Positions 5,408-21,229 of a stretch of DNA of 64,000 bases are shown here, one piece after another (the stretch's first letter is position 1; each line of letters begins with the position of its first letter). Both the position numbers and the translations under genes were made by a program. The notes under the pieces are model-generated. The model had not been told where the DNA came from. It saw nothing but the letters and a program-made list of their open reading frames with translations, and made no database searches. Source of the stretch: Streptomyces griseoluteus (GTDB lineage: Bacteria > Actinomycetota > Actinomycetes > Streptomycetales > Streptomycetaceae); contig NZ_SRRU01000002.1 of NCBI RefSeq assembly GCF_004784465.1, positions 186,001 through 250,000 on the forward strand, read 5' to 3'.

Positions 5408-6784
5408 CTACTGCTCGGCCTCCACCGCGGGCGGCGAACCCGGCAGCGGACGGCCGGCGGACTCGCTCATCCGCCACACCGCGAAGCCACCGATGACGGC
5501 GGCCGCCATCATGTAGTACGCGGGCATCATCAGGTTGCCGGTCGCGCCGATCAGCGCGGTGACCACCAGCGGGGTCGTACCGCCGAACAGGGACACCGAG
5601 ACGTTGAAGCCGATCGACAGCGAGCCGTAGCGGACCCGGGTGGGGAACAGCGCCGGGAGCGCGGCCGGCATGGCGGCGGTGAAGCAGACCAGCAGCAGAC
5701 CCAGCGCGCCCATGCCGAGCGCGACGGCGAGCAGGCTGCCCTGGCGGATCAGCAGCAGGGCCGGGATCGACAGGAACAGGAAGCCCGCGCAGCCCGCGGC
5801 GATCACCGGACGGCGGCCGACGCGGTCGGTCAGGGCGCCCGCGAACGGCTGGACGATCATCATCAGCGCCATCACGCCGAGCACGACCAGCAGACCGTGC
5901 GTCTCGTCGTACTTCAGCTCACTGGTGAGGAAGCTCGGCATGTACGACAGCAGCATGTAGTCGGTGACGTTGAAGACCAGCACCAGGCCGACACAGAGCA
6001 GCAGCGACTGCCACTGGCCCGCGAGCATGTCGCGCAGCGGCACCTTCGGCCGGTTGGTCTCGGCCTTCTCGACCTCGGCGGCGAAGGCCGGGGTCTCCTC
6101 CAGGCGCATCCGCAGGTACAGGCCGATGATGCCCATCGGACCGGCGATCAGGAACGGGATGCGCCAGCCCCAGGAGAGCAGGTCGTCGCTGGAGAGCAGG
6201 GCCGTCATCAGCGTGACCAGGCCCGCACCGCCGATGTAACCGGCCAGCGTGCCGAACTCCAGCCAGCTGCCGAGGAAGCCGCGCTTCTTGTCCGGGGCGT
6301 ACTCGGCGATGAAGGTCGAGGCACCGGCGTACTCACCGCCGGTGGAGAAGCCCTGCACCAGCCGGGCCGCCAGCAGCAGCAGCGGCGCGCCGACGCCGAT
6401 GGAGGCGTACGACGGAATCAGGCCGATGGCGAACGTGCCCGCCGCCATCATGATCATCGTGACGGCGAGGACCTTCTGGCGCCCCACCCGGTCGCCCAGC
6501 GGGCCGAAGATCATACCGCCGAGCGGGCGGACGAGGAAGGCGGCCGCAAAAGCGCCGAACGTCGAGAGGAGCTGTGCAGTCGGATTCCCGGAAGGGAAGA
6601 AGACTTTGCCCAGCGTCACGGCGATGTAGCTGTAGACGCCGAAGTCGAACCACTCCATGGCGTTGCCGAGCGCGGCGGCCTTGACGGCACGCTTGACGAG
6701 CGCGGGGTCGGTGACCGTGGGCTCTGCCTGGGCCTTCGGGGCCCGAAGGGACTTCGGACGGGGACTGACAGCGGTGGCGGCCAA
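5408..6784 (-). CDS. MFS transporter, metabolite:H+ symporter (ProP/MHS) family
   Basis: A 458-residue, 12-helix protein. The opening GNAMEWFDFGVYSY and the later RLVQGFSTGGEYAGA are the signature motifs of the MHS family (ProP, KgtP, ShiA, CitA), which import compatible solutes or carboxylates with protons. The loop GPLGDRVGRQK is the MFS motif A. The C-terminus is short, without the coiled coil that ProP of E. coli uses for osmosensing, so a carboxylate or osmolyte substrate cannot be decided. It is transcribed away from the GT87-PAP2 gene across a ~310 bp divergent region. Confidence 0.88.
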   Translation of the reverse strand: MAATAVSPRPKSLRAPKAQAEPTVTDPALVKRAVKAAALGNAMEWFDFGVYSYIAVTLGKVFFPSGNPTAQLLSTFGAFAAAFLVRPLGGMIFGPLGDRVGRQKVLAVTMIMMAAGTFAIGLIPSYASIGVGAPLLLLAARLVQGFSTGGEYAGASTFIAEYAPDKKRGFLGSWLEFGTLAGYIGGAGLVTLMTALLSSDDLLSWGWRIPFLIAGPMGIIGLYLRMRLEETPAFAAEVEKAETNRPKVPLRDMLAGQWQSLLLCVGLVLVFNVTDYMLLSYMPSFLTSELKYDETHGLLVVLGVMALMMIVQPFAGALTDRVGRRPVIAAGCAGFLFLSIPALLLIRQGSLLAVALGMGALGLLLVCFTAAMPAALPALFPTRVRYGSLSIGFNVSVSLFGGTTPLVVTALIGATGNLMMPAYYMMAAAVIGGFAVWRMSESAGRPLPGSPPAVEAEQ

Positions 6785-7093: not shown

Positions 7094-9151
7094 GTGGTGG
7101 ACGTGGAGCACGGCGGACGGTCGGCGGACACCCTGGCGACGGCCGGAGCCGGCCCCAGAGCCCGGCTCCGCGCCGCCCGGCTCGCCCTGTGGGCGGTCGC
7201 CGCGATCCTCGCGGCCCGGCAGATGGCCCTCGTCCTCACCACCCCGAGCGGGCAGCGCCTCACCGACCTGGAGACCTGGGTCGGCCCGGACGGCGTCCTG
7301 CACGTCAACGGCTCCCTGTACGACTCCACCCGGTTCACCGGCACCCCCTTCGCCGGCCTGGTCCTCAAGCCGCTCACCCGCGCCGCCGAACAGGCCCTCG
7401 GCTGGGGCTGGACCTTCGGCACACTGCTGCTGGTCGTCGCCCTCGGCCTGGTCGTCGCCCGCGCGCTGCCCCGGCCCGTGGGGCGCCGTACCGCCCTGCT
7501 GGCCGCCCCCGTCGCCATCAGCCTCCTGATGGTGTCGCTGCCGGTCCGCAACACCCTCTGGCTCGGGCAGACCAGCGTCATCCCGGTCCTGCTCGTCCTG
7601 CTGGGCTGCTTCACCGTGCGCGGCGAACGCACAGCAGGCGTGCTCATCGGCCTCGCCGCCGCCCTCCAGCCGACGGTCCTGCTCTTCGCCCCGCTGCTCT
7701 GGTTCACCGGCCGCCGCCGGGCCGCGCTCGGCGCCGCCGCCGCCTTCGCCGGGGGCACCCTGCTCGCCTGGGCCGCGATGCCGGGCGACTCCCTCACCTA
7801 CTGGGTGCACCACATGGCGGGCGTCGGCCTCGGCGGCAGCGCCGACGCGCTCGCCAACCAGTCGCTGCACGGCGCCCTGCTCCGGTCCGGGCTCAGCGGC
7901 CCGCCGGAGATCGCGCTCTTCCTGCTGCTCGGCACGGCCGTCGCCGTCCTCGCGCTGCGCCGGGCCGTGGGCTACGCCCGTGACGGGCAGCTCCTGCTCG
8001 CCGTGGCCGTCACCGGGTGCGCGGCCGTCGCCGTCTCCCCGACGACCTGGCAGCACCAGCTCCTCTGGGTGCTGCTCGCGGTGGCCGGCCGGGTCGGGAG
8101 GCGGGCCGCGGACCGTACGGTCTGGCCGGTCGCGGTGGTCCTGGTGACCACGCTCCCGCCGACGATGATGCTGCCGAACACGCCGGTGATGTACCCGCTG
8201 CGGGACAACCTCGTCCTCCTCGCCGCGCTGGCCGCCGCGACCGCCGTCCCCTTCCTGCCGCGCAGCTCCCCGCACTACGCCGCCCCGGCGCCCACCGTGT
8301 ACGCCCGTCAGGTCCCGGCCCGGTTCGCACGCGTACCGCTGCTGCCGTTCCTGCGGCGCTCGTTCACCCGGCCCAATCTGCTGCTGGAGCTGCTGCTCAT
8401 CCGCGTGACCTATGCGGCCTACGCGCAGGTGCGGCTCGCGGCGACCGGGGGCAGCAACCAACTCGGGCGCGAGACCGCCGAGCGCCACGGGCGGCTGGTG
8501 CTCGACGCCGAGCGGTTCCTGCGCATCGACATCGAGCACGCCGTCAACCACGCGGTCGTCCGGGTCGGCTGGCTGCGCGGGTTCCTCGACTTCTATTACG
8601 AGTCCTTCCACTTCGTCGTCCCGCTGACCGTGCTCGCCGTCCTCTACTGGCGCCGCCCGGTCGACTACCGCTGGGCCCGGACCTCCCTCGGTTTCGCCAC
8701 GCTGCTCGCGCTGACCGGCTTCTGGCTGTTCCCGCTGGCTCCGCCGCGTCTGATGCCGGGGCTCGGCTTCGTCGACACCGTGCACGGGGCTCAGGACCTC
8801 GCCAACCCGGACTACGGTGCGATGACCGCGATCACCAACCAGTACGCGGCGATGCCCTCGCTGCACTTCGGGTGGTCGCTGTGGTGCGGGGTGGTGATCG
8901 CGATCCTCGCGCCGCGCTGGTGGATGAAGGGGCTCGGGCTGCTGCATCCGCTGCTCACCGTCACGGCGATCGTGGCCACGGCCAACCACTGGGTGCTGGA
9001 CGCGGTGGGCGGGGCACTGGTGGTGGGGGGCGGCTTCGCCCTTGCGTACGTGCTGCTGGGGCCCCGGGGAATCGTCGCCTCCGGCGAGGTCGGACGGCCG
9101 CCGGGGCCGCGCAAGCCGCAGGAACAGTCGCAGCCGGTCAGCTCCGGCTGA
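7094..9151 (+). CDS. Fused GT87 glycosyltransferase / PAP2 (Aur1-like) membrane protein
   Basis: A polytopic membrane protein of about 685 residues with two halves. Residues ~25-440 are a GT-C fold glycosyltransferase of family 87 (polyprenyl-phosphate-mannose-dependent in known members), rich in hydrophobic helices. After a basic linker (~445-460), residues ~475-660 form a PAP2/inositol-phosphotransferase domain with the motifs AAMPSLHFGWS and NHWVLDAVGG, the two histidines and aspartate of the phosphatase site. Together this suggests a single protein that mannosylates a lipid and transfers or removes a phospho head group. GTG 7094 is chosen because GGGAGG lies 10 nt upstream; ATG 7046 is an alternative. 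The next gene starts 5 nt after the stop. Domain calls are firm; the pathway is inferred. Confidence 0.85.
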   Translation: MVDVEHGGRSADTLATAGAGPRARLRAARLALWAVAAILAARQMALVLTTPSGQRLTDLETWVGPDGVLHVNGSLYDSTRFTGTPFAGLVLKPLTRAAEQALGWGWTFGTLLLVVALGLVVARALPRPVGRRTALLAAPVAISLLMVSLPVRNTLWLGQTSVIPVLLVLLGCFTVRGERTAGVLIGLAAALQPTVLLFAPLLWFTGRRRAALGAAAAFAGGTLLAWAAMPGDSLTYWVHHMAGVGLGGSADALANQSLHGALLRSGLSGPPEIALFLLLGTAVAVLALRRAVGYARDGQLLLAVAVTGCAAVAVSPTTWQHQLLWVLLAVAGRVGRRAADRTVWPVAVVLVTTLPPTMMLPNTPVMYPLRDNLVLLAALAAATAVPFLPRSSPHYAAPAPTVYARQVPARFARVPLLPFLRRSFTRPNLLLELLLIRVTYAAYAQVRLAATGGSNQLGRETAERHGRLVLDAERFLRIDIEHAVNHAVVRVGWLRGFLDFYYESFHFVVPLTVLAVLYWRRPVDYRWARTSLGFATLLALTGFWLFPLAPPRLMPGLGFVDTVHGAQDLANPDYGAMTAITNQYAAMPSLHFGWSLWCGVVIAILAPRWWMKGLGLLHPLLTVTAIVATANHWVLDAVGGALVVGGGFALAYVLLGPRGIVASGEVGRPPGPRKPQEQSQPVSSG

Positions 9152-9156
9152 GGCGG

Positions 9157-10635
9157 GTGCACACCCCGACGCGAGACCTCGACCGCCCCCTCGCCCCGCG
9201 CCGCCCTCGGGAGCGGCGCTCCACGGCACCCGCGCTCGTGCCCGCCGTACTCGCCACGGTCCTCGGGCTGTGGGGGCTCACCCGGCACGGCAGCATGTGG
9301 CGCGACGAATCCGTCACCTACCGGGTGGCTCACCGTCCGCTCGGCGAACTCCTCGCGCTGCTGGGCCACATCGACGCCGTGCACGGCCTGTACTACCTGC
9401 TCATGCACGGCGTCCTCGCCCTCTGGGACGGCGGCCTTTTCGCCCTGCGCCTGCCCTCGGTGCTGGCCACCGCCCTCGCCGCCGCCGGGGTCGGGGCACT
9501 GGGCTCCCGCCTCGCCGGACCACGGAGCGGCGTTCTCGCGGGCGTGCTGTTCGCCCTCTTCCCGGCGACCCAGCAGTACGCGCAGGAGGGGCGGTCGTAC
9601 GCCCTCGTCACCGCCGGGGTGGTCTGGGCGACCTACCTCTTCCTGCGCGGAATCGGCTCAGCCGGGCGCGGCTGGTGGGTGGGGTACGGGGTGTTGCTGG
9701 CGGTCGTGTGCTGGGTGCACGAGTTCGCCGCGCTGGTGCTGTCCGCCCACGCGGTGACGCTGCGGCTGCTGGGGGTGCGGTGGCGGAGATGGGCGGTGGC
9801 GGCGGCGGGGGTACTGGTCGCGGTGGCGCCGCTGGCGGTGGTCAGCGCCCGGCAGGCCGACCAGCAGCTGGGCTGGCTGGGCCGCCCGAGCCCAGCCATG
9901 TGGCTCGCGTTCCTGGCCGTATCGGCCCCGGGCCTGCTGCTGAGCCGTGTCCCGGCCCTGGCCGACCGCACGGTGACCGCGCTCGCCCTGCCCCTGCTGA
10001 TCGTCCCGCCCGGCGTCCTGATCACCGCCTCCCTGCTCAAGCCGTGGTACGTCGACCGCTACGTCCTGTACGCCCTGACCGGGCTGGCCCTTCTCGGCGG
10101 CCTCGCGCTGGACCGGTTGCCGGCGCACCTCGAAAAGGCCGCCGTCTGCCTGCTGGCCCTGGCCTTGCTCCCCGCCTCCCTGGCGGTCCGGACCCCGGAG
10201 AGCCGCAAGGACGACGTGGTGGCGGTCGCCCGGACCGTACGGAAGCTGTCCCGCCCCGGCGACGGCGTGCTGTTCCTGCCGTCCCGCCGCCGCGAGTGGC
10301 TGCTGTCGTACCCCTCCCTGTACGCCCGCTTGCACGACGTGGCCCTGGCCCGTTCCCCTGCCGCTTCCCACACCCTCCAGGGCACGGAGCTGCCCCCGGA
10401 CACCATCCGGTCCCGCCTCTTGGCCACGCCTCGCGCGATCGCCCTGACCGACCCCGATGGCCAGCCCCTTGACCCCTTCCCCCAGGAGGAGGTCAAGCGC
10501 CGCACGCTCAGGGAGTACTTCGAGGAGTGCGAGCGGGTGCGGGTCTGGGGCGCTCAGGTGGTGGTCTACGTACGGAGACCGGACCTCGGCTCGGCCGCAC
10601 GGGGTGAGGGCTGCCCGGGCGGCGGCGGGCAGTAG
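9157..10635 (+). CDS. GT39/ArnT-type membrane glycosyltransferase
   Basis: A 492-residue polytopic protein starting at GTG 9157, five bases after the preceding stop, so the two genes are very likely one transcript. The first extracytoplasmic loop carries WRDESVTY, the acidic D-E pair expected of GT-C enzymes, followed by HIDAVHGLYYLLMH. About 10 helices and a soluble C-terminal region follow. GT-C enzymes use polyprenyl-phosphate sugars on the outer face of the membrane. With its neighbour it probably builds or decorates a surface glycolipid or polysaccharide. An internal GTG at 9238 would remove the N-terminal cytoplasmic tail and is less likely. Confidence 0.82.
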   Translation: MHTPTRDLDRPLAPRRPRERRSTAPALVPAVLATVLGLWGLTRHGSMWRDESVTYRVAHRPLGELLALLGHIDAVHGLYYLLMHGVLALWDGGLFALRLPSVLATALAAAGVGALGSRLAGPRSGVLAGVLFALFPATQQYAQEGRSYALVTAGVVWATYLFLRGIGSAGRGWWVGYGVLLAVVCWVHEFAALVLSAHAVTLRLLGVRWRRWAVAAAGVLVAVAPLAVVSARQADQQLGWLGRPSPAMWLAFLAVSAPGLLLSRVPALADRTVTALALPLLIVPPGVLITASLLKPWYVDRYVLYALTGLALLGGLALDRLPAHLEKAAVCLLALALLPASLAVRTPESRKDDVVAVARTVRKLSRPGDGVLFLPSRRREWLLSYPSLYARLHDVALARSPAASHTLQGTELPPDTIRSRLLATPRAIALTDPDGQPLDPFPQEEVKRRTLREYFEECERVRVWGAQVVVYVRRPDLGSAARGEGCPGGGGQ

Positions 10636-10640
10636 CGGGG

Positions 10641-11279
10641 TCAGTCGCGGTCCGGCGCCAGGACCGCCAGTACCGCTGAGGCCAGTGCCGCCAGTAGCAG
10701 AGGGACGCCCAGGCCGTGGTGGAGGACCAGCCAGGCGCCCAGGCAGGCGCCGGTGAACATGGAGAGGACCGCGGCTGTGCGGCGGGGGGAGCGGTCGGCG
10801 GTGCCGCTGCCCAGGCGGGACTCGGCGGCCAGGCCCGTCAGGGTCATGGTCAGGACTGTGGTGGTGAGGTCGGGGACGCCCAGGGCACGCACGGTGGCGT
10901 TGCGCAGGCCCATGGCCAGCGCGGTGAGGGCGATCAGGGCGTAGCGGGTGCCGGGGCGTTCGGGCCAGGCCAGGGCGATGGCTGCCGAGGCGCCGACCAG
11001 CAGGGCTTCCGCGACGAGGGTCAGCCGGGTGGCGCGGCGGACGCGGGAGGTGAGCCGGCCGCCTGCCGCCGCGCCGGCGAGGAAGCAGCCCAGCGAGGTG
11101 GCTGTGAGGGGTACGGAGAAGCCGGGGGCGCCCACCGCGGCGAAGCCGAGGATGACCACGTTGCCGGTCATGTTGGCCGTGAAGACGCGGCCGAGGCCCA
11201 GATAGCCGACCGCGTCGATCAGCCCGCTCACCACGGTCAGTACGAGCAGGACCCACGGGAGCCGCATCGTCCTGGGCAT
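10641..11279 (-). CDS. DUF1275 (YoaK-like) membrane protein
   Basis: A 212-residue protein with six predicted helices. The signature DAVGYLGLGRVFTANMTGNV of DUF1275 is near the N-terminus, and MGLRNATVRALGVPDLTTTV lies in the second half. Members are widespread in bacteria and may be small-solute permeases, but no substrate is established. It converges on the GT39 gene with a 5 bp gap. ATG 11279 is the first start and gives the normal family length. Confidence 0.85.
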   Translation of the reverse strand: MPRTMRLPWVLLVLTVVSGLIDAVGYLGLGRVFTANMTGNVVILGFAAVGAPGFSVPLTATSLGCFLAGAAAGGRLTSRVRRATRLTLVAEALLVGASAAIALAWPERPGTRYALIALTALAMGLRNATVRALGVPDLTTTVLTMTLTGLAAESRLGSGTADRSPRRTAAVLSMFTGACLGAWLVLHHGLGVPLLLAALASAVLAVLAPDRD

Positions 11280-11460: not shown

Positions 11461-11877
11461 TCAGTACCAGCCGTTGGCCTGCCAGAAGTTCCACGCCTGG
11501 GCGGGGCTGCCGTAGCGGGAGTTCATGTAGTCCAGGCCCCACTTGATCTGGGTGGCGGGGTTGGTCTTCCAGTCGGAACCGGCCGAGGACATCTTGGAGG
11601 CGGGAAGGGCCTGCACCAGGCCGTACGCGCCGGAGGAGCTGTTCTTGGCGGAGACGTTCCAGCCGCTCTCGTGCTCGACGATCTTGCTGAACGCGTTGTA
11701 CTGCGCGGCGTCCGGGATCATCCGGTGCGCGACGGACTGCGCCGAGGACGGCGCCGGGTTGGTCGCGGCCTGGGCGGGGGCGGTGCCGAGGGCGACACCG
11801 GCGACACCGGCGGCCAGGGCGGCCACGGTGACGGCCTTCTTCGGGGAGACGATGCGGCGGATGGCGGAGAACGACAC
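11461..11877 (-). CDS. Secreted transglycosylase-like (SLT-fold) protein
   Basis: A 138-residue preprotein. Residues 1-37 form a Sec signal peptide ending APAQA. The mature part has the lysozyme-like/SLT fold: IVEHESGWNVSAKN with the catalytic glutamate, then SGAYGLVQALPASKM and a C-terminal WNFWQANGWY. Such proteins cleave peptidoglycan glycan strands and are abundant in Streptomyces, where they assist growth, germination or secretion. No LysM or other wall-binding domain is attached, so it is a minimal enzyme. It has its own ~300 bp upstream leader separating it from the ECF operon. Confidence 0.85.
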   Translation of the reverse strand: MSFSAIRRIVSPKKAVTVAALAAGVAGVALGTAPAQAATNPAPSSAQSVAHRMIPDAAQYNAFSKIVEHESGWNVSAKNSSSGAYGLVQALPASKMSSAGSDWKTNPATQIKWGLDYMNSRYGSPAQAWNFWQANGWY

Positions 11878-12179: not shown

Positions 12180-13001
12180 TCACGCACCGGGTGCGTCGAA
12201 GGTGACCGGCGTCTCGAAGGCGGCCCGCCGGGTGGCCCGGCGCAGGGCGCGCAGCACGGCCGGGCCGAGGGCCAGGGTGAGGACGACCGTGCAGAGGGCC
12301 CGGCCCAGGTCCCAGCCCATGGAGGTGGCCAGGCAGTAGGCGAGGAAGCGGGCCAGGTTGGCGGGCACCGCCGCATGCGGGTCGAAGGAGATGTTCGACG
12401 CCATGGTTCCCATGAACGGCCAGCCGGCCAGGTTCATGACCGTGCCGTAGGCGAAGGCCGCGAGAAAGCCGTAGCAGGCGAGCATCGCCGACTCGGAACG
12501 GCCGCGCAGGCGGGCGGCGCCCGGCAGCAGGCCCGCGCCCATGGTGAACCAGCCCATCGCCAGCATCTGGAACGGCATCCACGGCCCGACCCCGCCGGTC
12601 AGCAGCGCGGACGCGAACATCGTCACCGAGCCGAGCACGAACCCGAAGCCGGGCCCGAGCACCCGCCCGCTGAGCACCAGCAGGAAGAACATCGGCTCGA
12701 TGCCCGCCGTACCCGCGCCGATCGGCCGCAGGGCCGCTCCGGTCGCCGCGAGCACCCCGAGCATGGCGACGGCCTTGGGACCGAGCCCCGACTCCGAGAT
12801 GGTCGCCGCCACCACCGCGACCAGCAGCACCAGCAGCCCGGCGAACAGCCAGGGCGCGTCCTCGGCATGCGCGCTGACCTGCGAGTCCGGCGGCGCGAGG
12901 AACGGCCACCCGAACGCGGCCACCCCCACCGCGCCGACCAGCACGAGCGCGGCGACGGAACGGGGGCCGAGCCGGACGGCCCGTACGGCGGGAGACGTCA
13001 T
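12180..13001 (-). CDS. ECF transporter S component (candidate cobalamin-specific)
   Basis: A 273-residue membrane protein with about six helices, last gene of the riboswitch-controlled operon. Its ATG overlaps the stop of the double-ATPase gene by 4 nt (ATGA). The helix pattern with GGVGPWMPFQMLAMGW and LACYGFLAAFAYG is typical of large ECF S components, and the NCBI-style family would be 'ECF transporter S component'. The S component gives substrate specificity to energy-coupling-factor importers. The B12 riboswitch upstream argues for a cobalamin or corrinoid substrate. Family call is good; the substrate is inferred from regulation. Confidence 0.82.
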   Translation of the reverse strand: MTSPAVRAVRLGPRSVAALVLVGAVGVAAFGWPFLAPPDSQVSAHAEDAPWLFAGLLVLLVAVVAATISESGLGPKAVAMLGVLAATGAALRPIGAGTAGIEPMFFLLVLSGRVLGPGFGFVLGSVTMFASALLTGGVGPWMPFQMLAMGWFTMGAGLLPGAARLRGRSESAMLACYGFLAAFAYGTVMNLAGWPFMGTMASNISFDPHAAVPANLARFLAYCLATSMGWDLGRALCTVVLTLALGPAVLRALRRATRRAAFETPVTFDAPGA

Positions 13002-14647
13002 GCCAGCGCCTTCCGTACCTCGGACACCGTCAGCCAGGGCTGCGGGGCCAGGATCTTGGTGACCTGGGGCGCGAAGGAGGGCGAGGACACCACGATGTCG
13101 GCCGTGGCGCCGTCCGCTATCACCTCGCCGTCCGCCAGCAGCACCACCCGGTGCGCGATCTCGGCGGCCAGCTCCACGTCGTGCGTGGCCAGCACCAGGG
13201 CGTGCCCCTCCGCCGCCAGTCCGCGCAGCACGGCGACCAGGCGGGCCTTGGCCGCGTAGTCCAGGCCGCGCGTCGGCTCGTCCAGCAGGAGCAGCGGAGG
13301 GCGTGCCGTCAGGACGACGGCGAGCGCGAGGGCGAGACGCTGGCCCTCGGAGAGGTCGCGGGGGTGGGTGTCGTCGGTGATGCCCGGCAGCAGCTCCGAC
13401 ACCAGGGCCCGGCAGGTGCCGGGCGCGGCGTCCGCGTCCTTGTCGGCGGCGACGCACTCGGCGCCCACCGTGTCGGCGTACAGCAGATCGCGCGGCTCCT
13501 GCGGCACCAGGCCGACCCGGCGCACCAGTTCGGCGGGCCTCAGCCGGTGCGGGGCGGCCCCACCGGCCAGGACGGAACCGGAGGTGGGCGCGACGAGCCC
13601 GACCAGGGAGCCGAGCAGCGTGGACTTCCCGGCGCCGTTGCGGCCCATGAGGGCGACGGTCTCGCCTGGACCGACGGTCAGGTCGACGCCCCGCAGCGCG
13701 TCGACCCGGCCGCGCCGTACGGCGAGGTCCCGCACCTCGGCGACCCGCGGCTCGGCGGGGGAGGAGCGCCGGAAACGGCGGCGGGACGGGACGGCGGTGA
13801 CCTGGGGGAGACCGGGGGACTCCGGCACGGCACCGGCGAGGCTCTCCCGCAGCGGCCCCGCCCTGCGCCGCGCGTCCCGGACGGTCAGCGGCAGCGGGCT
13901 CCAGCCGGCCAGCCGGCCCAGCTCGACCACCGGCGGGATCACCGGGGAGACGGCCATCATGTCGGCCGGGGCGCCGAGGACCGGGGGAGCGCCGGGGGCG
14001 GGCAGCAGCACGACCTGGTCGGCGTACTGGACGACCCGCTCCAGCCGGTGCTCCGCCATGAGGACCGTGGTGCCCAGGTCGTGCACCAGGCGTTGCAGGA
14101 CCGCGAGGACCTCCTCCGCCGCGGCCGGGTCCAGCGCCGAGGTCGGCTCGTCCAGGACCAGTACGCGGGGGTGCGGGGTGAGCACCGAGCCGATGGCGAC
14201 CCGCTGGCGCTGCCCGCCGGACAGGGTGCCGATGGAACGGTCCCGCAGATCGGCGAGGCCCAGCAGGTCGAGCGTCTCCTCCACCCGGCGCCGCATCACC
14301 TCCGGAGCCAGCCCCAAGGACTCCATGCCGTAGGCGAGTTCATCCTCCACGGTGTCGGTGACGAAGTGCGCGAGCGGGTCCTGGCCCACCGTGCCGACCA
14401 CGTCGGCCAGTTCGCGCGGCTTGTGAGTGCGGGTGTCCCGCCCCGCCACCGTGACCCGGCCGCGCAGGGTGCCCCCGGTGAAGTGCGGGACCAGCCCGCT
14501 GACCGCGTTAAGGATCGTCGACTTGCCCACCCCCGACGGGCCGACGAGCAGCACGAGTTCACCCTCGGGCACCTCGAAGTCCACGCCCCGGACGGTCGGT
14601 CCGGCCGCCCCGTCGTACGTGACGGCGACGTCCTCGAAGCGGATCAC
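12998..14647 (-). CDS. ECF transporter double ATPase (EcfA-EcfA' fusion)
   Basis: A 549-residue cytoplasmic protein with two complete ABC domains. First: Walker A GPSGVGKST, signature LSGGQRQR, Walker B VLVLDEPTSALD. Second (from about residue 310): Walker A GRNGAGKST, signature LSEGQRLALA, Walker B LLLLDEPTRGLD. The two halves replace the separate EcfA1/EcfA2 subunits of Firmicutes. It starts at GTG 14647, overlapping the EcfT stop by 4 nt (GTGA), and ends overlapping the S-component start. It powers uptake of the substrate bound by the S component. Confidence 0.92.
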   Translation of the reverse strand: MIRFEDVAVTYDGAAGPTVRGVDFEVPEGELVLLVGPSGVGKSTILNAVSGLVPHFTGGTLRGRVTVAGRDTRTHKPRELADVVGTVGQDPLAHFVTDTVEDELAYGMESLGLAPEVMRRRVEETLDLLGLADLRDRSIGTLSGGQRQRVAIGSVLTPHPRVLVLDEPTSALDPAAAEEVLAVLQRLVHDLGTTVLMAEHRLERVVQYADQVVLLPAPGAPPVLGAPADMMAVSPVIPPVVELGRLAGWSPLPLTVRDARRRAGPLRESLAGAVPESPGLPQVTAVPSRRRFRRSSPAEPRVAEVRDLAVRRGRVDALRGVDLTVGPGETVALMGRNGAGKSTLLGSLVGLVAPTSGSVLAGGAAPHRLRPAELVRRVGLVPQEPRDLLYADTVGAECVAADKDADAAPGTCRALVSELLPGITDDTHPRDLSEGQRLALALAVVLTARPPLLLLDEPTRGLDYAAKARLVAVLRGLAAEGHALVLATHDVELAAEIAHRVVLLADGEVIADGATADIVVSSPSFAPQVTKILAPQPWLTVSEVRKALA

Positions 14648-15768
14648 GACGGCTCCTTGCGGTCCTGGGGTACGACGAGCACGGGCAGCAGGCCCAGCAG
14701 GATGGCGGCGGCCGGCCACAGCGGCAGCGCGGGTGCCGCCAGCGGGACGACACCGGGGTGCAGCGCGCCCGGATCGCGTACGGAGGCCAGCGCGAGCAGC
14801 GCGGCGACGGCCGCGCCCGACCCCGCGACCAGCCACGCCCGCACCCCCCACGGCGCCGGCCGGTACCGGGTGCGCGGCGAGCGCCGGCCGCCCAGGCGCA
14901 GCCCGGCGAGCGCGGCCAGCGCCCCGGCGAGCAGCACCGGCATCCCGTACACCCCGCCCTCGGCGGTGAGCAGCCCGTACGTGCCCGCGCACACCCCGAG
15001 CAGGCCGCCCAGGGTGAGCGCGGTCGTGGTACGGCGCACCGGCGCGGGCACCTCGGCGGTACGGCCGTAGCCGCGGGCGTCCATCGCGGCGGCCAGCGCG
15101 ACCGAGCGCTCCAACGCGCCCTCCAGTACCGGCAGTCCGACCTGGAAGAGCCCCCGCAGCCCCCGGTCCGGGCGCCCCCGGAGACGACGGGCGGCGCGCA
15201 GTCGCTGCACATCGGCGATGAGATGCGGGGCGAAGGTCAGCGCGACCACCACCGCCACCCCCGCCTCGTACAGCGCGCCCGGCAGCGACTTGAGCAGCTT
15301 GGCCGGGCTGGCCAGGGCGTTCGCGGCGCCGACACAGACCAGGAGGGCCGCCAGTTTCAGGCCGTTGTAGCCGGAGAACAGCAGCGCCTCCGCCGACACC
15401 GGCCCGCCCAGCCGGATGCCCTGCGCCCAGGCGGGCAGCGGGATCTCGGGCAGGGTGAACAGCACATGCGTACCCGGCACCGGCGAGCCGAGCACGGCCG
15501 TGAACGCCAGCCGGATCAGCAGCACGGCGACGGCCAGCTTGGCGAACGCCGTGTACGAGCGGGCCCACGGCGCGCTGGAGCGGTGGACCGCCACCACATG
15601 GCCCGCCACCGCCGTCAGCAGGGCGAGCAGCAGCGGGTTGGTGGTGCGGGTGGCGGCGGTGCCGAGTCCGAGTGACCACAACCACCAGGCGCCGGGGTGC
15701 AGTTCGAAGCGTGTCCGGCTGCGGACGGGCACGGTGGTACGGGCGGCGCGGACGCCGGTGTCAGGCAT
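14644..15768 (-). CDS. ECF transporter transmembrane protein (EcfT/CbiQ family)
   Basis: A 374-residue membrane protein. A CbiQ-type core covers residues ~20-270, with the cytoplasmic coupling-helix motif region AAAMDARGYGRT, a variant of the A-R-G motif that docks EcfT on the ATPases. About 100 further residues with extra helices extend the C-terminus, making it longer than typical CbiQ (~225-265). It starts at ATG 15768, overlapping the preceding SCO2322-family gene by 8 bp. It joins the S component to the double ATPase. Confidence 0.88.
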   Translation of the reverse strand: MPDTGVRAARTTVPVRSRTRFELHPGAWWLWSLGLGTAATRTTNPLLLALLTAVAGHVVAVHRSSAPWARSYTAFAKLAVAVLLIRLAFTAVLGSPVPGTHVLFTLPEIPLPAWAQGIRLGGPVSAEALLFSGYNGLKLAALLVCVGAANALASPAKLLKSLPGALYEAGVAVVVALTFAPHLIADVQRLRAARRLRGRPDRGLRGLFQVGLPVLEGALERSVALAAAMDARGYGRTAEVPAPVRRTTTALTLGGLLGVCAGTYGLLTAEGGVYGMPVLLAGALAALAGLRLGGRRSPRTRYRPAPWGVRAWLVAGSGAAVAALLALASVRDPGALHPGVVPLAAPALPLWPAAAILLGLLPVLVVPQDRKEPS

Positions 15769-16396
15769 CCCGGCGCCGCCGCGCCTGCCAGAACGCCGCC
15801 CCGCCGAGCACGGCGACGACGCCTATGCCGAGGGGGAGACCGAGGGAGGGGCCGTCGTCCTTCGGGGCTGCCTTGTCGGACGGCTTCTCGTCCGCCGCGA
15901 CCTGCTCCCCGCACCCCCGCGCCGGGTAACCGGCGATGGCGCACAGCAGGGCGTTGCTGTCGTAGCGAAGCGGCTTGGCGGTCCCGGCCAGGGCCTCGGC
16001 GGTGCTGGCGTCCGGAGAGACGCGGGCGCAGACCGTACGCGTGGCGGGCGGGCTCTCCCCGGAGGGAGCGTCGGCCCTGGTGCCGAAGTCGAGAACGAGC
16101 GCGACCCGCTTGGTGCCCGCCTTCGCGGGCGTCCGCGCGCAGATCGTGCCGAAGTCCGCCGCGCCGCGCGGCCGGTCCGCGTCCGAGGAGTCCGCGCTGA
16201 CCGCGAACCGGAAGCCCCGCACCGAGCCGTCGTCGGGGCGCTCGGAGGCCGGACCCTGGGTGGCGTACGTCCACCGGTCGCCGGAACGGTCCCAGAAGGA
16301 CCAGTACCGGTATCCGGCGGCCCGCGCCCCGGCGGCGGCGGTGAGGACGAGGAGGGCCGCGACCAGCACGGCCGCGGCACGGCGGACCGAGGTCAC
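15761..16396 (-). CDS. SCO2322-family surface protein
   Basis: A 211-residue protein with an N-terminal signal peptide (residues 1-26, ending GARA) and a C-terminal hydrophobic helix (LGLPLGIGVVAVLGGAAFW) followed by a short basic tail (QARRRRDA). The bulk is therefore displayed outside the membrane and anchored by its C-terminus. The ectodomain begins YRYWSFWDRSGDRW and contains paired cysteines (ICAR, VCARV, LLCAI, RGCGE) that could form disulphides. The family is known only by its S. coelicolor locus name. Location between the toroid receptor-like gene and EcfT, with 4-8 bp overlaps, indicates a role in the same uptake system. It starts at GTG 16396. Confidence 0.8.
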   Translation of the reverse strand: MTSVRRAAAVLVAALLVLTAAAGARAAGYRYWSFWDRSGDRWTYATQGPASERPDDGSVRGFRFAVSADSSDADRPRGAADFGTICARTPAKAGTKRVALVLDFGTRADAPSGESPPATRTVCARVSPDASTAEALAGTAKPLRYDSNALLCAIAGYPARGCGEQVAADEKPSDKAAPKDDGPSLGLPLGIGVVAVLGGAAFWQARRRRDA

Positions 16397-17595
16397 GGGC
16401 GGTTCTTCTTCCGGCCGCTGAACAGGAAGCCGACGCCGATACCGGCGACCAGGCCCACGCCGATGATCCACCACACGCTGTTGCCGGACTTCTCGGTGGC
16501 CTTCTTCTCCGGCGCGGCGGCCTGCTTCGCCGGGGCCGGGCCCAGCTTGTCCAGGGCGCGGACCAGGTCGGTCCCGCCGAAGTCGTGCGGGTCGGCGCCG
16601 ACCGCGTGCGCGCTCAGGATGAGCTGGGCGTAGGCGGCGGGGCCGCTCTGCTGCGCCCACTTCGCGGCGTTCTTCTTCAGCCAGGCGTACGGGGCCTTCG
16701 CCTGCTTCGTCCAGCCGTCGGCGGCCAGCGCCACCACGGTGTCGGCGGTGTTGCCGAAGTCGGGCTGGTTCTCGGCGCCGGGCATCGCGGACATCAGGTG
16801 GCCCGACTTGGAGACGGCGCCGATGAGATGGGCGGAGGCGTTGTCGGCCAGGCGGGCCGGGGTCGCCTTGCCGTCCGAGGCGCAGGCGGGGGCCTTGTCG
16901 CGGGCCTTGCCGGGCGCCACGACGAAGCCCTTGCCGAGCGCGCCGAGCACGCCGGCGGCCGTGGCGTCCGCGTTGGCCTCCAGCTTGCCCTTCTTGTCCG
17001 GCTGGAAGGCGAGCGCCCCGCCGCCCTTCTGGGCACAGGGCACGGCCAGCGAGGCCAGCGCCTGATCCGGGGTCTTCCCCTTGCCGCGCAGCTCGGCCGG
17101 CTTCTCACCGGCGGCGGCCAGCGCGCCCACCACGACGGAGGTGGAGTTGGTGTCGCTCGGGCCGCCGGGGGAGTAGCCCCAGCCGCCGTCCTTGTTCTGC
17201 TGGGCCTTCAGCCAGGTGACGGCCTTGCCGGTCACGTCGTCGTGCCCGCCGAGCGCGGCGAGCGCCTGGACGGCGGCGGCCGTGCTGTTGGTGTCGGCCT
17301 GCGCGCCCTTGCCGCCGCACGCGGCGCCGGTGTCGGCGCGGAAGGAGGCGAAGCCGCCGTCGGCGCACTGCTGGCCGGTCAGCCACTTCACGGCCTGGTC
17401 CGCGGGCTTCTCACCGGCGGTGTGCTGCGCGAGCAGGGCGAGGGACTGGCGCCAGACGCCGTCGTACGTGGGGTCGCCCTTGCCGAACAGCCCGGCCGGG
17501 ACCGTCACCTTCGGGGACGGGGCGGCCGTGGCGGGCGCGGCTGCGGCCAGCACGCCTATGGCGGCGAGAGCCGCGGCACTGCGGCGGACGTTCAT
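16393..17595 (-). CDS. Surface-anchored prenyltransferase/squalene-oxidase-repeat (alpha/alpha-toroid) protein, transcobalamin-like
   Basis: A 400-residue protein, first gene behind the cobalamin riboswitch. Residues 1-25 are a signal peptide (APATAA). Residues ~45-340 contain repeated helical hairpins with QQNKDGGWGYSPG and two DTNST(A/S) blocks, the repeat type of the alpha/alpha-toroid fold shared by terpene cyclases and by intrinsic factor/transcobalamin. No DxDD catalytic motif is seen. A C-terminal helix (VWWIIGVGLVAGIGVGFLF) and basic tail anchor it in the membrane. ATG 17595 follows AGGAGAGG. Context and fold point to extracellular cobalamin capture for the ECF importer; that function is inference, since the standard annotation names only the repeat. 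Confidence 0.82.
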   Translation of the reverse strand: MNVRRSAAALAAIGVLAAAAPATAAPSPKVTVPAGLFGKGDPTYDGVWRQSLALLAQHTAGEKPADQAVKWLTGQQCADGGFASFRADTGAACGGKGAQADTNSTAAAVQALAALGGHDDVTGKAVTWLKAQQNKDGGWGYSPGGPSDTNSTSVVVGALAAAGEKPAELRGKGKTPDQALASLAVPCAQKGGGALAFQPDKKGKLEANADATAAGVLGALGKGFVVAPGKARDKAPACASDGKATPARLADNASAHLIGAVSKSGHLMSAMPGAENQPDFGNTADTVVALAADGWTKQAKAPYAWLKKNAAKWAQQSGPAAYAQLILSAHAVGADPHDFGGTDLVRALDKLGPAPAKQAAAPEKKATEKSGNSVWWIIGVGLVAGIGVGFLFSGRKKNRP

Positions 17596-17639
17596 GGTCG
17601 GCGACTGCCTCTCCTGCGAGGGCCCGACGCGCACGGGAA

Positions 17640-17845
17640 CCACCCCGGCGGCCCGGCCCCGTATGCCTCGACGGTGCCGTGCGGGGCACAGCGCCCCGCA
17701 CGTGAGCCGGTCAACCTCCCGTCGGGGCGTTCCGGCTCACCGGGCCCAGGGGGCGCCGGATGACGGTTGCGGGTCAGCGCCGGAATCGCACCGGCTTCCC
17801 CCCGTACAGGTGTATGACGACCCGGCCACTTTACCGGGGGCCGCA
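17640..17845 (-). promoter_or_regulatory. Cobalamin (B12) riboswitch
   Basis: On the minus strand the region reads into the conserved cobalamin-riboswitch core at about 17801-17761: GGGGAAGCCGGU, a short hairpin, then GACCCGCAACCGUCA. It is followed by the GUGAGCCGGAACGCC / GGUUGACCGGCUCAC stem near 17740-17700 and a GACGGUGCC-type GUCGAGG segment near 17670. The leader then runs to AGGAGAGG and the ATG at 17595. In known B12 riboswitches ligand binding hides the ribosome-binding site or terminates transcription, so the operon should be repressed when adenosylcobalamin is plentiful. Outer boundaries are approximate. Confidence 0.9.
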
Positions 17846-18003: not shown

Positions 18004-19419
18004 GTGACCGCTGAGGCCAGTCAGGCGGCTCCCCCGGGCACCGCCGCCGACGGCGAGCGACCGCTCCGTATCGCGCTCCTCACCTACAAGGGCAATCCGT
18101 TCTGCGGCGGCCAGGGCGTCTACGTCCGCCACCTCTCCCGGGAACTCGCCCGCCTGGGCCACCGGGTGGAGGTCATCGGCTCCCAGCCCTACCCCGTGCT
18201 CGACGAACACGACGACTACGCGGGCCGGTTGAGCCTCACCGAGCTGCCCAGCCTCGACCTCTACCGCCAGCCCGACCCCTTCCGCACCCCCGGGCGAGGC
18301 GAATACCGGGACTGGGTCGACGCGCTCGAGGTCGCCACGATGTGGACCGGCGGCTTCCCCGAGCCGCTCACCTTCTCCCTGCGAGCCGGACGTCAACTGC
18401 GCGCCCGGAAGGGTGAGTTCGACGTCGTCCACGACAACCAGACGCTCGGCTACGGCTTGCTCGGGGACCTCGGCGCCCCCCTGGTCACCACCATCCACCA
18501 CCCCATAACCGTCGACCGGCAGCTCGAACTCGACGCCGCCGAAGACCTCAAGCGCCGCCTCTCGGTGCGCCGCTGGTACGCCTTCACCCGGATGCAGAAG
18601 CGCGTCGCCCGCCGGCTGCCCTCCGTGCTCACCGTCTCCGGCAGCTCCCGCCAGGAGATCGTCGACCACCTCGGCGTACGTCAGGACCGGGTGCACGTCG
18701 TCCACATCGGCGCCGACACCACCCTGTTCGCGCCCAGTCCGGCCGTGCCCGAGGTGCCGGGCCGGATCGTCACCACCTCCAGCGCCGACGTGCCCCTCAA
18801 GGGCCTGGTGTTCCTGGTCGAGGCCCTCGCCAAGGTGCGCGCCGAACAGCCGCACGCCCACCTCGTCGTCGTCGGCAAGCGCCCCGAGGAGGGACCGGTC
18901 GCCCAGGCGATCGAGCGGTACGGCCTGGAGGACGCCGTCGAGTTCGTCAAGGGCATCTCCGATACCGAGCTGGTCGACCTGATCCGTTCCGCCGAAGTCG
19001 CCTGTGTGCCCTCGCTGTACGAGGGGTTCTCGCTGCCCGCCGCCGAGGCCATGGCCACCGCCACCCCGCTGGTCGCCACCACCGGGGGCGCGATTCCCGA
19101 GGTCGCCGGGACCGACGGCGAGACCTGCCTGGCCGTACCCCCCGGCGACGCGGGCGCGCTCGCCGCCGCCCTCACCCGGCTGCTCGGCGACCGGGAACTG
19201 CGCGCCCGGCTCGGCGCGGCCGGCCGCGAGCGGGTGCTCGCCCGCTTCACCTGGGCCCGCGCGGCCGAGGGCACCGTGGCCCGCTACCGCGAGGAGATCG
19301 ACCGGGCCCGCCCGGGCGTCAGACCACTTCCCGCAGCCGTCCCCGGCCGCCCCGTCGCCGTCGCGGCGAGTGCCGCGGCACCTTCCGAAAGCTCCTCCGA
19401 AAGCAGGGCCACGTGCTGA
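18004..19419 (+). CDS. Glycosyltransferase family 4
   Basis: A 471-residue cytosolic GT-B enzyme. The N-terminal glycine-rich acceptor loop is NPFCGGQGVYVRHLSREL. The donor domain carries VPLKGL and the EX7E motif (VPSLYEGFSLPAAEAMATA), both GT4 hallmarks. The enzyme transfers a sugar from a nucleotide sugar with retention. The start is GTG 18004 with AAGGGGG ~8 nt upstream. The stop overlaps the methyltransferase start by 7 nt, so the three genes 18004-21229 form a coupled operon. The last ~40 residues are a low-complexity Ala/Ser tail. Confidence 0.9.
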   Translation: MTAEASQAAPPGTAADGERPLRIALLTYKGNPFCGGQGVYVRHLSRELARLGHRVEVIGSQPYPVLDEHDDYAGRLSLTELPSLDLYRQPDPFRTPGRGEYRDWVDALEVATMWTGGFPEPLTFSLRAGRQLRARKGEFDVVHDNQTLGYGLLGDLGAPLVTTIHHPITVDRQLELDAAEDLKRRLSVRRWYAFTRMQKRVARRLPSVLTVSGSSRQEIVDHLGVRQDRVHVVHIGADTTLFAPSPAVPEVPGRIVTTSSADVPLKGLVFLVEALAKVRAEQPHAHLVVVGKRPEEGPVAQAIERYGLEDAVEFVKGISDTELVDLIRSAEVACVPSLYEGFSLPAAEAMATATPLVATTGGAIPEVAGTDGETCLAVPPGDAGALAAALTRLLGDRELRARLGAAGRERVLARFTWARAAEGTVARYREEIDRARPGVRPLPAAVPGRPVAVAASAAAPSESSSESRATC

Positions 19420-20162
19420 CCGTCGACTTCTCCCGGTTCCCGCTCGCCCCCGGCGACCGTGTCCTGGACCTCGGCTGCGGGGCCGGCCGGCACGCCTTCG
19501 AGTGCTACCGGCGCGGCGCCCGCGTCGTGGCCCTCGACCAGAACGCGGAGGAGATCCGCGAGGTCGCCAAGTGGTTCGCGGCGATGAAGGAGGCCGGCGA
19601 GGCCCCCGAGGGCGCCACCGCCACGGCGATGGAGGGCGACGCGCTCGCGCTGCCCTTCCCCGACGAGTCCTTCGACGTCGTCATCATCTCCGAGGTGATG
19701 GAGCACATCCCCGACGACAAGGGCGTCCTCGCCGAGATGGTCCGCGTCCTCAGGCCCGGCGGCCGGATAGCCGTCACCGTGCCCCGGTACGGTCCCGAGA
19801 AGGTCTGCTGGGCGCTCTCCGACGCCTACCACGAGGTCGAGGGCGGCCACATCCGCATCTACCGCGCCGAGGAACTCCTCGCCAAGATGCGCGGCGCCGG
19901 CCTCAAGCCGTACGGCACCCACCACGCGCACGCCCTGCACTCGCCGTACTGGTGGCTCAAGTGCGCCTTCGGCGTCGACAACGACAAGGCGCTGCCGGTG
20001 CGGGCGTACCACAAGCTGCTGGTCTGGGACATCATGAAGAAGCCGCTGGCCACCCGTGTGGCCGAGCAGGCGCTCAACCCGCTGATCGGCAAGAGCTTCG
20101 TCGCCTACGCCACCAAGCCGCACCTGCCCCGCCTCGACGAGGCCGGGACGGACGCCCCGTGA
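19413..20162 (+). CDS. Class I SAM-dependent methyltransferase (UbiE/Methyltransf_11 type)
   Basis: A 249-residue protein. Motif I is VLDLGCGAGRHAFEC, motif II acidic residue in VVALDQNAEE, motif post-I GDALALPFPDESFDVV, and motif III LRPGGRIAVTVPR. The C-terminal part (about 150-249) contains YHEVEGGHIRIYR and many basic and aromatic residues, which may bind a bulky acceptor. It starts at GTG 19413 inside the GT4 gene and its stop overlaps the start of the toroid gene by 3 nt. The substrate is presumably the product of the coexpressed GT4, but this is inferred from coupling only. Confidence 0.88.
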   Translation: MLTVDFSRFPLAPGDRVLDLGCGAGRHAFECYRRGARVVALDQNAEEIREVAKWFAAMKEAGEAPEGATATAMEGDALALPFPDESFDVVIISEVMEHIPDDKGVLAEMVRVLRPGGRIAVTVPRYGPEKVCWALSDAYHEVEGGHIRIYRAEELLAKMRGAGLKPYGTHHAHALHSPYWWLKCAFGVDNDKALPVRAYHKLLVWDIMKKPLATRVAEQALNPLIGKSFVAYATKPHLPRLDEAGTDAP

Positions 20163-21229
20163 CCACGCCCCGGACCGACCACCTGGTGCTGACCGGGGTC
20201 CTCACCGCCGAGCAGGCCGCCGACACCGTCCGGGGCATCCTCGCGGTGCAGCGCCCCGACGGCGCGATCCCCTGGTTCCGCGGCCACCACCTCGACCCGT
20301 GGGACCACACCGAGGCCGCCATGGCCCTCGACGCGGCCGGGGAGCACGCGGCCGCCGAGCGCGCCTACCGCTGGCTCGCCGACCACCAGAACGAGGACGG
20401 TTCCTGGTACGCCGCCTACGCCGACGGCGCCCACGACGACGTCACCGACCGCGCCCGCGAGTCCAACTTCGTCGCCTACATAGCCGTCGGCGTCTGGCAC
20501 CACTACCTGTCCACCGGGGACGACACGTTCCTGGACCGGATGTGGCCCACCGTGTACGCGGCCGTCGAGTGGGTGCTCCGGCTCCAGCAGCCCGGCGGCC
20601 AGATCGGCTGGCGGTGCGCCGAGGACGGCACCCCCACCACGGACGCCCTGCTCACCGGCAGCTCCTCCGTCCACCACGCCCTGCGCTGTGCGCTCGCCAT
20701 CGCCGAGCAGCGCGAAGAACCGCAGCCCGACTGGGAGTTGGCGGTGGGCGCGCTGCGGCACGCGATCCGCAGGCACCCCGAGCGGTTCCTTGACAAGAAC
20801 CAGTACTCGATGGATTGGTACTACCCGGTGCTCGGCGGCGCCGTCACCGGCGCCGAGGCAAAGGAGCGCGTCGAGGACGGGTGGGACCGCTTCGTCGTGC
20901 CCGGCCTGGGCGTGCGCTGCGTCGTGCCCAACCCGTGGGTGACCGGCGGCGAGTCCTGCGAACTCGCCCTGGCCCTCTGGGTGATGGGCGAGTCCGACCG
21001 GGCGCTGGAGATACTCCAGTCCATCCAGCACCTGCGCGACGACGAGTCCGGCCTGTACTGGACCGGTTACGTCTTCGACGACGACGCCATCTGGCCGCGG
21101 GAGCTGACCAGTTGGACCGCCGGCTCGCTGCTGCTCGCGGTCGCCGCCCTCGGCGGCCACGACGCGACCGGCGCCGTCTTCGGCGGCGACCGGCTGCCCC
21201 GCGGCCTGGACCCCGACTGCTGCGACTAG
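20159..21229 (+). CDS. Alpha/alpha-toroid protein, annotated prenyltransferase-like; resembles six-hairpin glycosidases
   Basis: A 356-residue cytoplasmic protein without signal peptide, starting at GTG 20159 which overlaps the previous TGA. It is built of helical hairpins. The repeat LADHQNEDGSWYAAYADG fits the prenyltransferase/squalene-oxidase profile, but the segment YLSTGDDTFLDRMWPTVYAA followed by WVLRLQQPGG is the kind seen in six-hairpin glycosidases such as GH15. No DxDD or zinc-ligand set for prenyl chemistry is visible. Conserved-looking acids lie in HHLDPWDHTEAA and GWRCAEDG. I would call it a toroid enzyme acting on a glycan rather than a prenyltransferase; confidence in that reassignment is moderate. 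Confidence 0.75.
   Translation: MTTPRTDHLVLTGVLTAEQAADTVRGILAVQRPDGAIPWFRGHHLDPWDHTEAAMALDAAGEHAAAERAYRWLADHQNEDGSWYAAYADGAHDDVTDRARESNFVAYIAVGVWHHYLSTGDDTFLDRMWPTVYAAVEWVLRLQQPGGQIGWRCAEDGTPTTDALLTGSSSVHHALRCALAIAEQREEPQPDWELAVGALRHAIRRHPERFLDKNQYSMDWYYPVLGGAVTGAEAKERVEDGWDRFVVPGLGVRCVVPNPWVTGGESCELALALWVMGESDRALEILQSIQHLRDDESGLYWTGYVFDDDAIWPRELTSWTAGSLLLAVAALGGHDATGAVFGGDRLPRGLDPDCCD

Follow-up and report, generated by a model that had tools for sequence, protein, structure and literature searches.

The stretch of Streptomyces griseoluteus DNA analyzed here, a window of 64,000 nucleotides (nt) (contig NZ_SRRU01000002.1, positions 186,001 to 250,000), carries on its minus strand a five-gene operon preceded by a cobalamin riboswitch. 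Two of the genes encode surface proteins, here called TOR (the toroid, SCO2321 family) and BET (SCO2322 family), and the other three encode the parts of an energy-coupling factor (ECF) importer. We propose that the operon specifies a dedicated ECF importer of cobalamin or complete corrinoids, equipped with a split, membrane-anchored capture pair resembling intrinsic factor. This overall proposal, in which we infer ligand binding, clamp geometry, hand-over and transport, is judged likely, though well short of certain; that the operon would import a corrinoid of some kind is very probable. The proposal is carried by the riboswitch, by a circular permutation that connects BET to the beta domain of intrinsic factor through a sister form, by the matched forms of TOR and BET across related loci, and by the B12 genotype of the organisms that carry the operon.

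Operon organization and the cobalamin riboswitch

The operon occupies positions 17595 to 12180 on the minus strand, and its successive genes overlap by 4, 8, 4 and 4 nt. The features of the unit are as follows (aa, amino acids).

17725..17801, minus strand: cobalamin riboswitch aptamer, RF00174, about 130 nt 5' of the first start codon
16393..17595, minus strand: TOR, SCO2321-family alpha/alpha-toroid surface protein, 400 aa, ATG start; NF053823 SCO2321_fam, 581.7 bits
15761..16396, minus strand: BET, SCO2322-family surface protein, 211 aa, GTG start; NF040672 SCO2322_fam, 226.2 bits
14644..15768, minus strand: EcfT/CbiQ-family transmembrane coupling protein, 374 aa; PF02361, 28.4 bits (cut-off 25)
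12998..14647, minus strand: EcfA-EcfA' fused double ATPase, 549 aa; two ABC_tran PF00005 stretches; TIGR04521, 284 bits (cut-off 330)
12180..13001, minus strand: S component, predicted substrate-binding membrane protein, 273 aa; ECF_trnsprt PF12822, 32.2 bits (cut-off 30.7)
16420..16476, minus strand: TOR C-terminal transmembrane anchor, then basic tail (translation, by eye)
15788..15844, minus strand: BET C-terminal transmembrane anchor, GPS-CTERM-like, 27.1 bits (cut-off 28), and translation

The initial annotation had described a cobalamin riboswitch before five genes with overlaps of 4-8 nt, and had named the genes as toroid, SCO2322-family protein, EcfT, double ATPase and S component; both the layout and the identities, the latter through NCBIfam and Pfam matches, are borne out. 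According to these matches among the window genes, an ECF importer is complete within the one unit, with EcfT, two ATPase domains and an S component. Inspection of the translations by eye shows that TOR and BET share an architecture of signal peptide, ectodomain, C-terminal hydrophobic helix and basic tail. With the signal peptide and the hydrophobic helix, both proteins are therefore expected to be tethered outside the membrane.

In a local scan of 701 nt, the aptamer at 17801-17725 scored 30.2 bits against RF00174 with an E-value of 8.5e-6. Because this score falls short of the cut-off of 31.5, a scan of the whole window at the gathering cut-off returned no RF00174 match. The equivalent position is above the cut-off in 6 of the 11 Streptomyces relatives scanned. 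Considering the score and E-value together with these relatives, the aptamer is, as far as sequence evidence goes, a real riboswitch and not a chance match. At least four RF00174 sites, this aptamer among them, were found in the window's genome when 150 of 599 first-look candidates were scored; the remaining three precede cbiB, nrdAB and cbtA, which act in the metabolism of B12 or cobalt or in bypassing it. Beyond this genome, 52 related loci were scanned, and 28 of them have a cobalamin-class riboswitch above the cut-off immediately upstream and on the coding strand (sets of 7/10, 7/10, 6/11, 4/10 and 4/11; locus L197, whose riboswitch is on the opposite strand, is left out of the tally).

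BET and the beta domain of intrinsic factor

Two conserved halves can be recognized in the BET ectodomain.

16202..16327, minus strand: BET W-half (YWSFW...W.YA..GP...GFRF), corresponding to the C-terminal half in type-B order
15902..16111, minus strand: BET T-half (VALVLDFG...TAEAL...LLCAIAGYP..GC), corresponding to the N-terminal half in type-B order

In several families these halves occur in reverse order. We refer to this sister form as type B and to the window form as type A. When the window-type BET alignment was rotated stepwise against nine type-B domains, the score rose from 70.6 over 59 columns to 117.9 over 100 columns (E 1.3e-20), and the best breakpoint was the stretch between the two halves.

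The sister form was compared with known beta domains profile to profile by hhalign, with 100 column shuffles as the control; the beta domains of intrinsic factor, haptocorrin and transcobalamin(s) (IF/HC/TC) were cut from PDB chains. Type-B BET aligns with DUF4430 collinearly (probability 92.5, E 5e-7), and a set of 30 type-B sequences gives a score of 33.0 and a probability of 74.2 against a shuffle maximum of 21.3. Collinear alignment of the nine-sequence profile with the IF/HC/TC beta domains scores 29.8 (probability 59.1; shuffle maximum 15.2), and the 30-sequence profile scores 24.3 (probability 20.4; shuffle maximum 16.0). DUF4430 itself matches the IF/HC/TC beta domains with a probability of 95.7 and an E-value of 8.5e-9, and the domain is described at the C-terminus of transcobalamins (PMC4350170). 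Direct profile searches of PDB sequences with type-B BET or with DUF4430 gave no transcobalamin match, which appeared only when profile was compared with profile. With fairly high confidence, resting on these profile comparisons, we regard BET as a putative permuted member of the DUF4430/intrinsic-factor beta superfamily.

The alpha/alpha barrel of TOR

An AlphaFold2 model of the TOR ectodomain was built from 78 rows, the window sequence and 77 Streptomyces toroids; of the 80 such toroids found, two near-copies and the shorter L066 were left out. The model is an alpha/alpha barrel (predicted local distance difference test, pLDDT, 93.6; predicted template-modeling score, pTM, 0.93). The nearest solved folds are squalene-hopene cyclase and drimenyl diphosphate synthase: TOR aligns with 2sqc_A at a Z score of 24.0 and 2.7 Å over 255 residues, epimerases and hydrolases follow at Z scores near 19-20, and squalene-hopene and drimenyl cyclases likewise top the profile search. 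A direct homology of TOR with the vertebrate B12-binding barrel is not supported, as terpene cyclases come first in Foldseek, VIA-align and the profile search alike. The matches listed (50, 50 and the best 60 of 68, respectively) include neither transcobalamin nor intrinsic factor, which does not amount to exclusion, and Cobalamin_bind PF01122 gives a weak match (10.7 bits, E 0.26) in one of the five type-B toroids scanned.

The initial annotation had likened the toroid to the alpha/alpha barrel of intrinsic factor and transcobalamin, and had proposed the two ectodomains as a Gram-positive analog of intrinsic factor. The predicted barrel fold agrees with it, while a homology of the toroid with intrinsic factor is not supported, given the cyclases at the top of the fold and profile searches and the toroid's absence beside many relatives; the link to intrinsic factor emerged instead in the sister form of the SCO2322 family. 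Although a cyclase fold is matched, the DxDD motif of cyclases, which the initial annotation had named together with such a fold as speaking against its reading, is absent from the window ectodomain, and it occurs anywhere in the sequence in only 6 of 78 type-A and 1 of 7 type-B toroids. Aspartate, asparagine, serine, threonine or glutamine residues recur in the TOR repeats (ectodomain numbering: D77, N79, T81; D124, N126, S127, T128; N184, D186; D255, N258, T259, D261), and these polar residues could line the mouth of the barrel.

TOR also has a permuted sister form. Rotating TOR raised the score against this form from 243.8 over 190 columns to 351.9 over 292 columns, with the next breakpoint at 351.7 over 296 columns. 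The displaced segment alone scored 118.7, compared with 67.2 for the next repeat-register match. The best breakpoints (204-216) and the helix boundaries of the model place the junction in one loop.

16861..16938, minus strand: toroid loop where type-B toroids begin and end (ectodomain residues 196-221)

Paired forms of TOR and BET

Related loci were typed with local profiles, 40 of them fetched and 20 more taken from weak or second matches; the resulting 60 loci carry our L numbers. All five genes are present in 35 loci, only the toroid is lacking in 12, and more is lacking in 13, several of which lie at contig ends. By the best-fitting full-length profile, the 43 loci with both TOR and BET divide into 22 A/A and 21 B/B, with none mixed. 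It should be mentioned that 6 of the 21 B/B loci, together with L148, served to train the type-B profiles, that L187 has a low score, and that L192 and L193 are contig-edge fragments. L196, labeled 'B/AB' by the script, was counted as B/B, both of its BETs having the T-half before the W-half by eye. L179 stands outside the A/B counts, with a toroid slightly nearer type A and DUF4430 replacing BET. The typing was checked by the order of the halves, using half-models from Streptomyces only. Both genes were resolved in 23 of the 43 loci (18 A/A and 5 B/B, none mixed), and one gene in 19 loci, of which 18 agree with the profile typing; L187 stays untyped. The sole conflict, L194 with its toroid called 'A', dissolves on inspection, as this locus has two toroids, each in B order, and halves of different toroids had been compared.

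L194 also holds the only fusion of BET and toroid among the 60 typed loci, in the order beta-Ig-barrel-barrel; in the window the two are separate genes.

L194, 7736-11419, minus strand: fusion frame of 1228 aa, comprising a type-B BET (residues 80-222), an Ig I-set domain (324-411) and two type-B toroids (423-752 and 857-1130); cobalamin riboswitch just upstream, 11480-11610; second BET match further down, 7221-7625

The pair also moves as a unit in other loci. L146 (6185-10561, minus strand) has two tandem TOR-BET pairs before one ECF module, with a cobalamin riboswitch at 10555-10727 upstream of the first. Five loci (L122, L124, L137, L140 and L184) have a detached pair with no match to EcfT, EcfA or the S component in the fetched stretch; an S component is found elsewhere in the genome for all five, and a search of 10 genomes found it in eight and not in G275 and G131. 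The detached pairs of L122, L124 and L140 have their own riboswitch, so that the TOR-BET pair itself would be B12-controlled.

On a tree of EcfA and the S component, the form switches at least twice along branches with strong support, and four to five times in the best tree; toroid-less loci were labeled from BET alone. The root differs between trees: the class is rooted inside type B in the first, and inside type A in the second, from which the long-branched L190 was dropped. Type A as a single clade is rejected (approximately unbiased test, p-AU 0.012), in a test chosen after the first tree had been seen. Co-change of TOR and BET can be counted in only two independent pairs on strongly supported branches, or four on all branches; because only two to four independent switches are countable, we attach no significance to it, and the Fisher p of 9.5e-13 for the match of forms ignores ancestry. 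We read TOR-BET as a matched unit that has been inherited, duplicated, exchanged and, once, fused.

Several other arrangements were noted in these loci. In L147 a lone type-B BET (5493-6250, minus strand) follows the ECF genes and has a cobalamin riboswitch of its own at 6137-6250. The type-B operon occurs in some Streptomyces (L197, L198 and L199), and in L197 and L198 the toroid gene comes after the S component, as in L179. The detached pair of L140 (8119-14034, plus strand) has an adenosylcobalamin (AdoCbl) riboswitch and is followed by frames that by eye resemble inositol-catabolism genes.

Distribution and B12 genotype

Of 296 genomes of the class, 103 have an SCO2322 domain scoring above the cut-off, whereas none of 14 control genomes does. 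Outside Streptomyces, the corrin-ring gene cbiC is missing in 67 of 76 operon-bearing genomes, compared with 58 of 170 genomes without an SCO2322 match; a further 22 weak-match genomes, 17 of them without cbiC, were placed in neither group. The B12-binding domain PF02310 is present at E<=0.001 in all 67 cbiC-less operon genomes, above the cut-off in 66. Outside Streptomyces, the operon thus appears mostly to mark organisms that use B12 and lack the corrin-ring gene. Within Streptomyces, 25 of 27 carriers also have cbiC, the window's own genome included, and the operon there would therefore serve salvage.

Eight DUF4430 loci were fetched from less closely related members of the phylum, and in five of them (L173-L176 and L179) EcfA or S genes adjoin an unpermuted DUF4430. 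Riboswitches occur in four of the eight (L175, L178, L179 and L180), of the cobalamin class in L175 and L179; L173, L174 and L176 have none above the cut-off. L179 combines a cobalamin riboswitch, DUF4430, EcfT, EcfA, an S component and a toroid. The large frame of L175 could possibly be a corrinoid-capture protein.

L175, 3833-8446, plus strand: frame of 1538 aa with two DUF4430 stretches, after an AdoCbl-II riboswitch and before another DUF4430 gene, EcfA and S

Other features of the window and of related loci

The divergent neighbors of the operon at 18004-21229 (plus strand) are a glycosyltransferase, a methyltransferase and a 356-aa frame without a Pfam match at E 1e-4; nothing in them suggests membership of the B12 operon. 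The window also contains a class A RNase P RNA at 35033-35433 (plus strand, 292.5 bits). In L082 two matches to the Rfam antisense-RNA family ASpks (7254-7328 and 12570-12644, plus strand; 69.8 and 71.0 bits) may reflect a conserved coding segment.

Proposed mechanism and alternative explanations

Intrinsic factor clamps cobalamin between an alpha/alpha barrel and a beta domain. By analogy, we propose that at low cellular B12 the riboswitch would be free and the genes of the operon would be made. BET, together with TOR where it is present, would catch a corrinoid at the outer face of the membrane, the two chains serving as a split clamp modeled on intrinsic factor. The capture pair would then hand the ligand to the S component, and EcfT and the double ATPase would drive import. 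For the TOR-BET clamp as such, we put the chances somewhat above even. The initial annotation had suggested a B12 capture-and-import system; what remains supported is an ECF importer under B12 control whose two membrane-anchored ectodomains have a tie to B12, and the toroid as a homolog of intrinsic factor is not supported.

A number of observations weigh against this proposal. With respect to BET, the hhalign probabilities of the sister form against IF/HC/TC are low (59% and 20%). Direct comparison of the window-type BET with IF/HC/TC scores 13.0, permuted or not, within the chance range (shuffle maximum 18.5), and its comparison with DUF4430 reaches 27.6 over only 43 columns (shuffle maximum 24.0) with no gain from permutation. 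Because the window-type comparison falls within chance, the link from BET to intrinsic factor goes only via the sister form. The AlphaFold model of BET (81 rows, the window and 80 Streptomyces sequences) is poor, with a pLDDT of 60.9, and fold searches with it gave no match. As for TOR, it resembles cyclases, and 12 of 34 type-A loci and 5 of 26 type-B loci have BET with no toroid next to it (three of the latter five, L148, L181 and L182, start at a contig end; L196 is counted as type B). A search of 14 whole genomes with the type-A toroid profile found none in 13 and a tail match only in the fourteenth, while both positive controls matched. TOR is an accessory component, and because it is absent in several lineages the two-chain clamp cannot be universal. 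Regulation and genotype also leave gaps. In 24 of the 52 scanned loci, the detached pairs of L137 and L184 among them, no riboswitch above the cut-off stands immediately upstream in the right orientation. The cbiC association consists of raw counts that ignore ancestry, and PF02310 is also found in 49 of 58 genomes with neither cbiC nor operon (48 above the cut-off), so that other importers must exist. Finally, no solved relative of the S component was found among PDB sequences, its sole match being a designed protein at E 1.9.

These points bear on several alternative explanations. The resemblance of BET to the beta domain of DUF4430 and intrinsic factor could be a convergence of small beta domains, BET being unrelated. 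Consistent with this, Pfam DUF4430 (PF14478) at E 1 matches neither the window BET nor the five type-B BETs scanned, a direct search of PDB sequences with the nine-sequence type-B BET profile gave no transcobalamin match, the window-type BET stays within chance, and the larger type-B set scores below the small one (24.3 vs 29.8). However, in each of the three comparisons made, the sister form aligns collinearly over the full domain and scores above every one of 100 column shuffles, and a bona fide DUF4430 holds the corresponding operon place in L179, and we consider convergence improbable. It is also conceivable that the ECF module imports B12 with no clamp involved, TOR being an enzyme (for example glycan- or terpenoid-processing) or a wall-spanning scaffold, and BET docking TOR to the S component. 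The best fold matches of TOR are indeed enzymes, and several lineages do without it. Against such a role, DxDD is not conserved in the toroids, and the matching of TOR and BET forms without a mixed locus, the joint duplication in L146, the joint riboswitches in L122, L124 and L140 and the fusion in L194 are as expected of two parts in contact; this explanation appears unlikely.

The cargo itself might be another item of the B12 pathway, either cobalt ions, or cobinamide or a lower-ligand base, and not cobalamin. Cobalt uptake can also be under cobalamin riboswitches, as with cbtA in the window's genome, the EcfT belongs to the CbiQ family, and since that genome has cbiC, import of finished B12 is not required. 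Yet 67 of the 76 operon genomes outside the genus lack cbiC, and these organisms should have no need of cobalt for making B12 de novo; a DUF4430-like beta domain would be unexpected in a metal transporter, and neither CbiM nor CbiN is named in the Pfam and NCBIfam scans of the five operon proteins. We hold a cargo of this kind to be quite unlikely.

Returning to the capture pair, a wider interpretation can be offered tentatively, at slightly less than even chances. Actinobacteria may possess a split, membrane-tethered counterpart of intrinsic factor whose two chains underwent circular permutation, or replacement by permuted forms, together; the DUF4430 beta domain of vertebrate carriers and BET may both derive from bacterial ECF-linked corrinoid capture; and TOR-BET may close on B12 and load the S component. 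To our knowledge, little has been established about how Gram-positive B12 auxotrophs take up trace B12, an ability that abundant Actinobacteria of fresh water and soil would require. If our proposal is true, SCO2321 and SCO2322, families known by locus tag only, can be tested as a pair of B12 capture proteins, and a function can be assigned to bacterial relatives of a key domain of human vitamin carriers. The rare paired circular permutation and the natural fusion would then help to establish how the two parts are oriented toward each other.

Comparison with known systems

The open-licence PMC literature yielded nothing on SCO2322 by name, nothing joining circular permutation, intrinsic factor and cobalamin, and nothing joining CbrT, Actinobacteria and S-component; among the titles and beginnings of abstracts listed there was no account of TOR or BET as B12 proteins. 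The signal sequence of SCO2321 is reported to have been used to derive a delivery peptide (PMC9237094). As far as this literature shows, four points are apparently new: the link between SCO2322 and the intrinsic-factor beta superfamily, the permutation of BET, the matching permutation in the toroid, and the presence of riboswitches dedicated to the pair.

ECF-CbrT of Lactobacillus delbrueckii is described as a proven ECF importer of cobalamin and cobinamide, with a solved CbrT structure, 6FNP (PMC5997447). The window system shares with it the ECF module and an S component. In contrast, the window module lies in one operon with its own S component, which has no sequence match to a solved chain. 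For the freshwater lineage acI, reported to be without B12 synthesis, an ECF module behind cobalamin and AdoCbl riboswitches was proposed as a putative cobalamin transporter (PMC5301498); BET and TOR are not mentioned in the available part of that account. The small genomes of our family f25 look like members of the acI lineage. All four f25 loci fetched (L113, L120, L129 and L130) have BET, EcfT, EcfA and S behind a B12-class riboswitch, and no toroid was found in the six f25 genomes asked.

The DUF4430 loci L173-L176 and L179 resemble the window operon in placing a DUF4430 (PF14478) domain beside EcfA or S, and differ from it in that the domain is unpermuted, in the multi-domain giant of L175 and in the toroid after the S gene of L179. 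Squalene-hopene cyclase and other toroid enzymes share the barrel fold of TOR, whereas TOR is predicted to be exported, membrane-anchored and B12-regulated and has no conserved DxDD. Compared with intrinsic factor, haptocorrin and transcobalamin, the bacterial chains are normally separate and membrane-anchored, the window beta domain is circularly permuted, the likeness of the barrel is seen in its fold, and cobalamin binding by the bacterial chains is putative. What the two sides have in common is the combination of an alpha/alpha barrel with a DUF4430-type beta domain, to which the sister form of BET aligns collinearly above shuffles.

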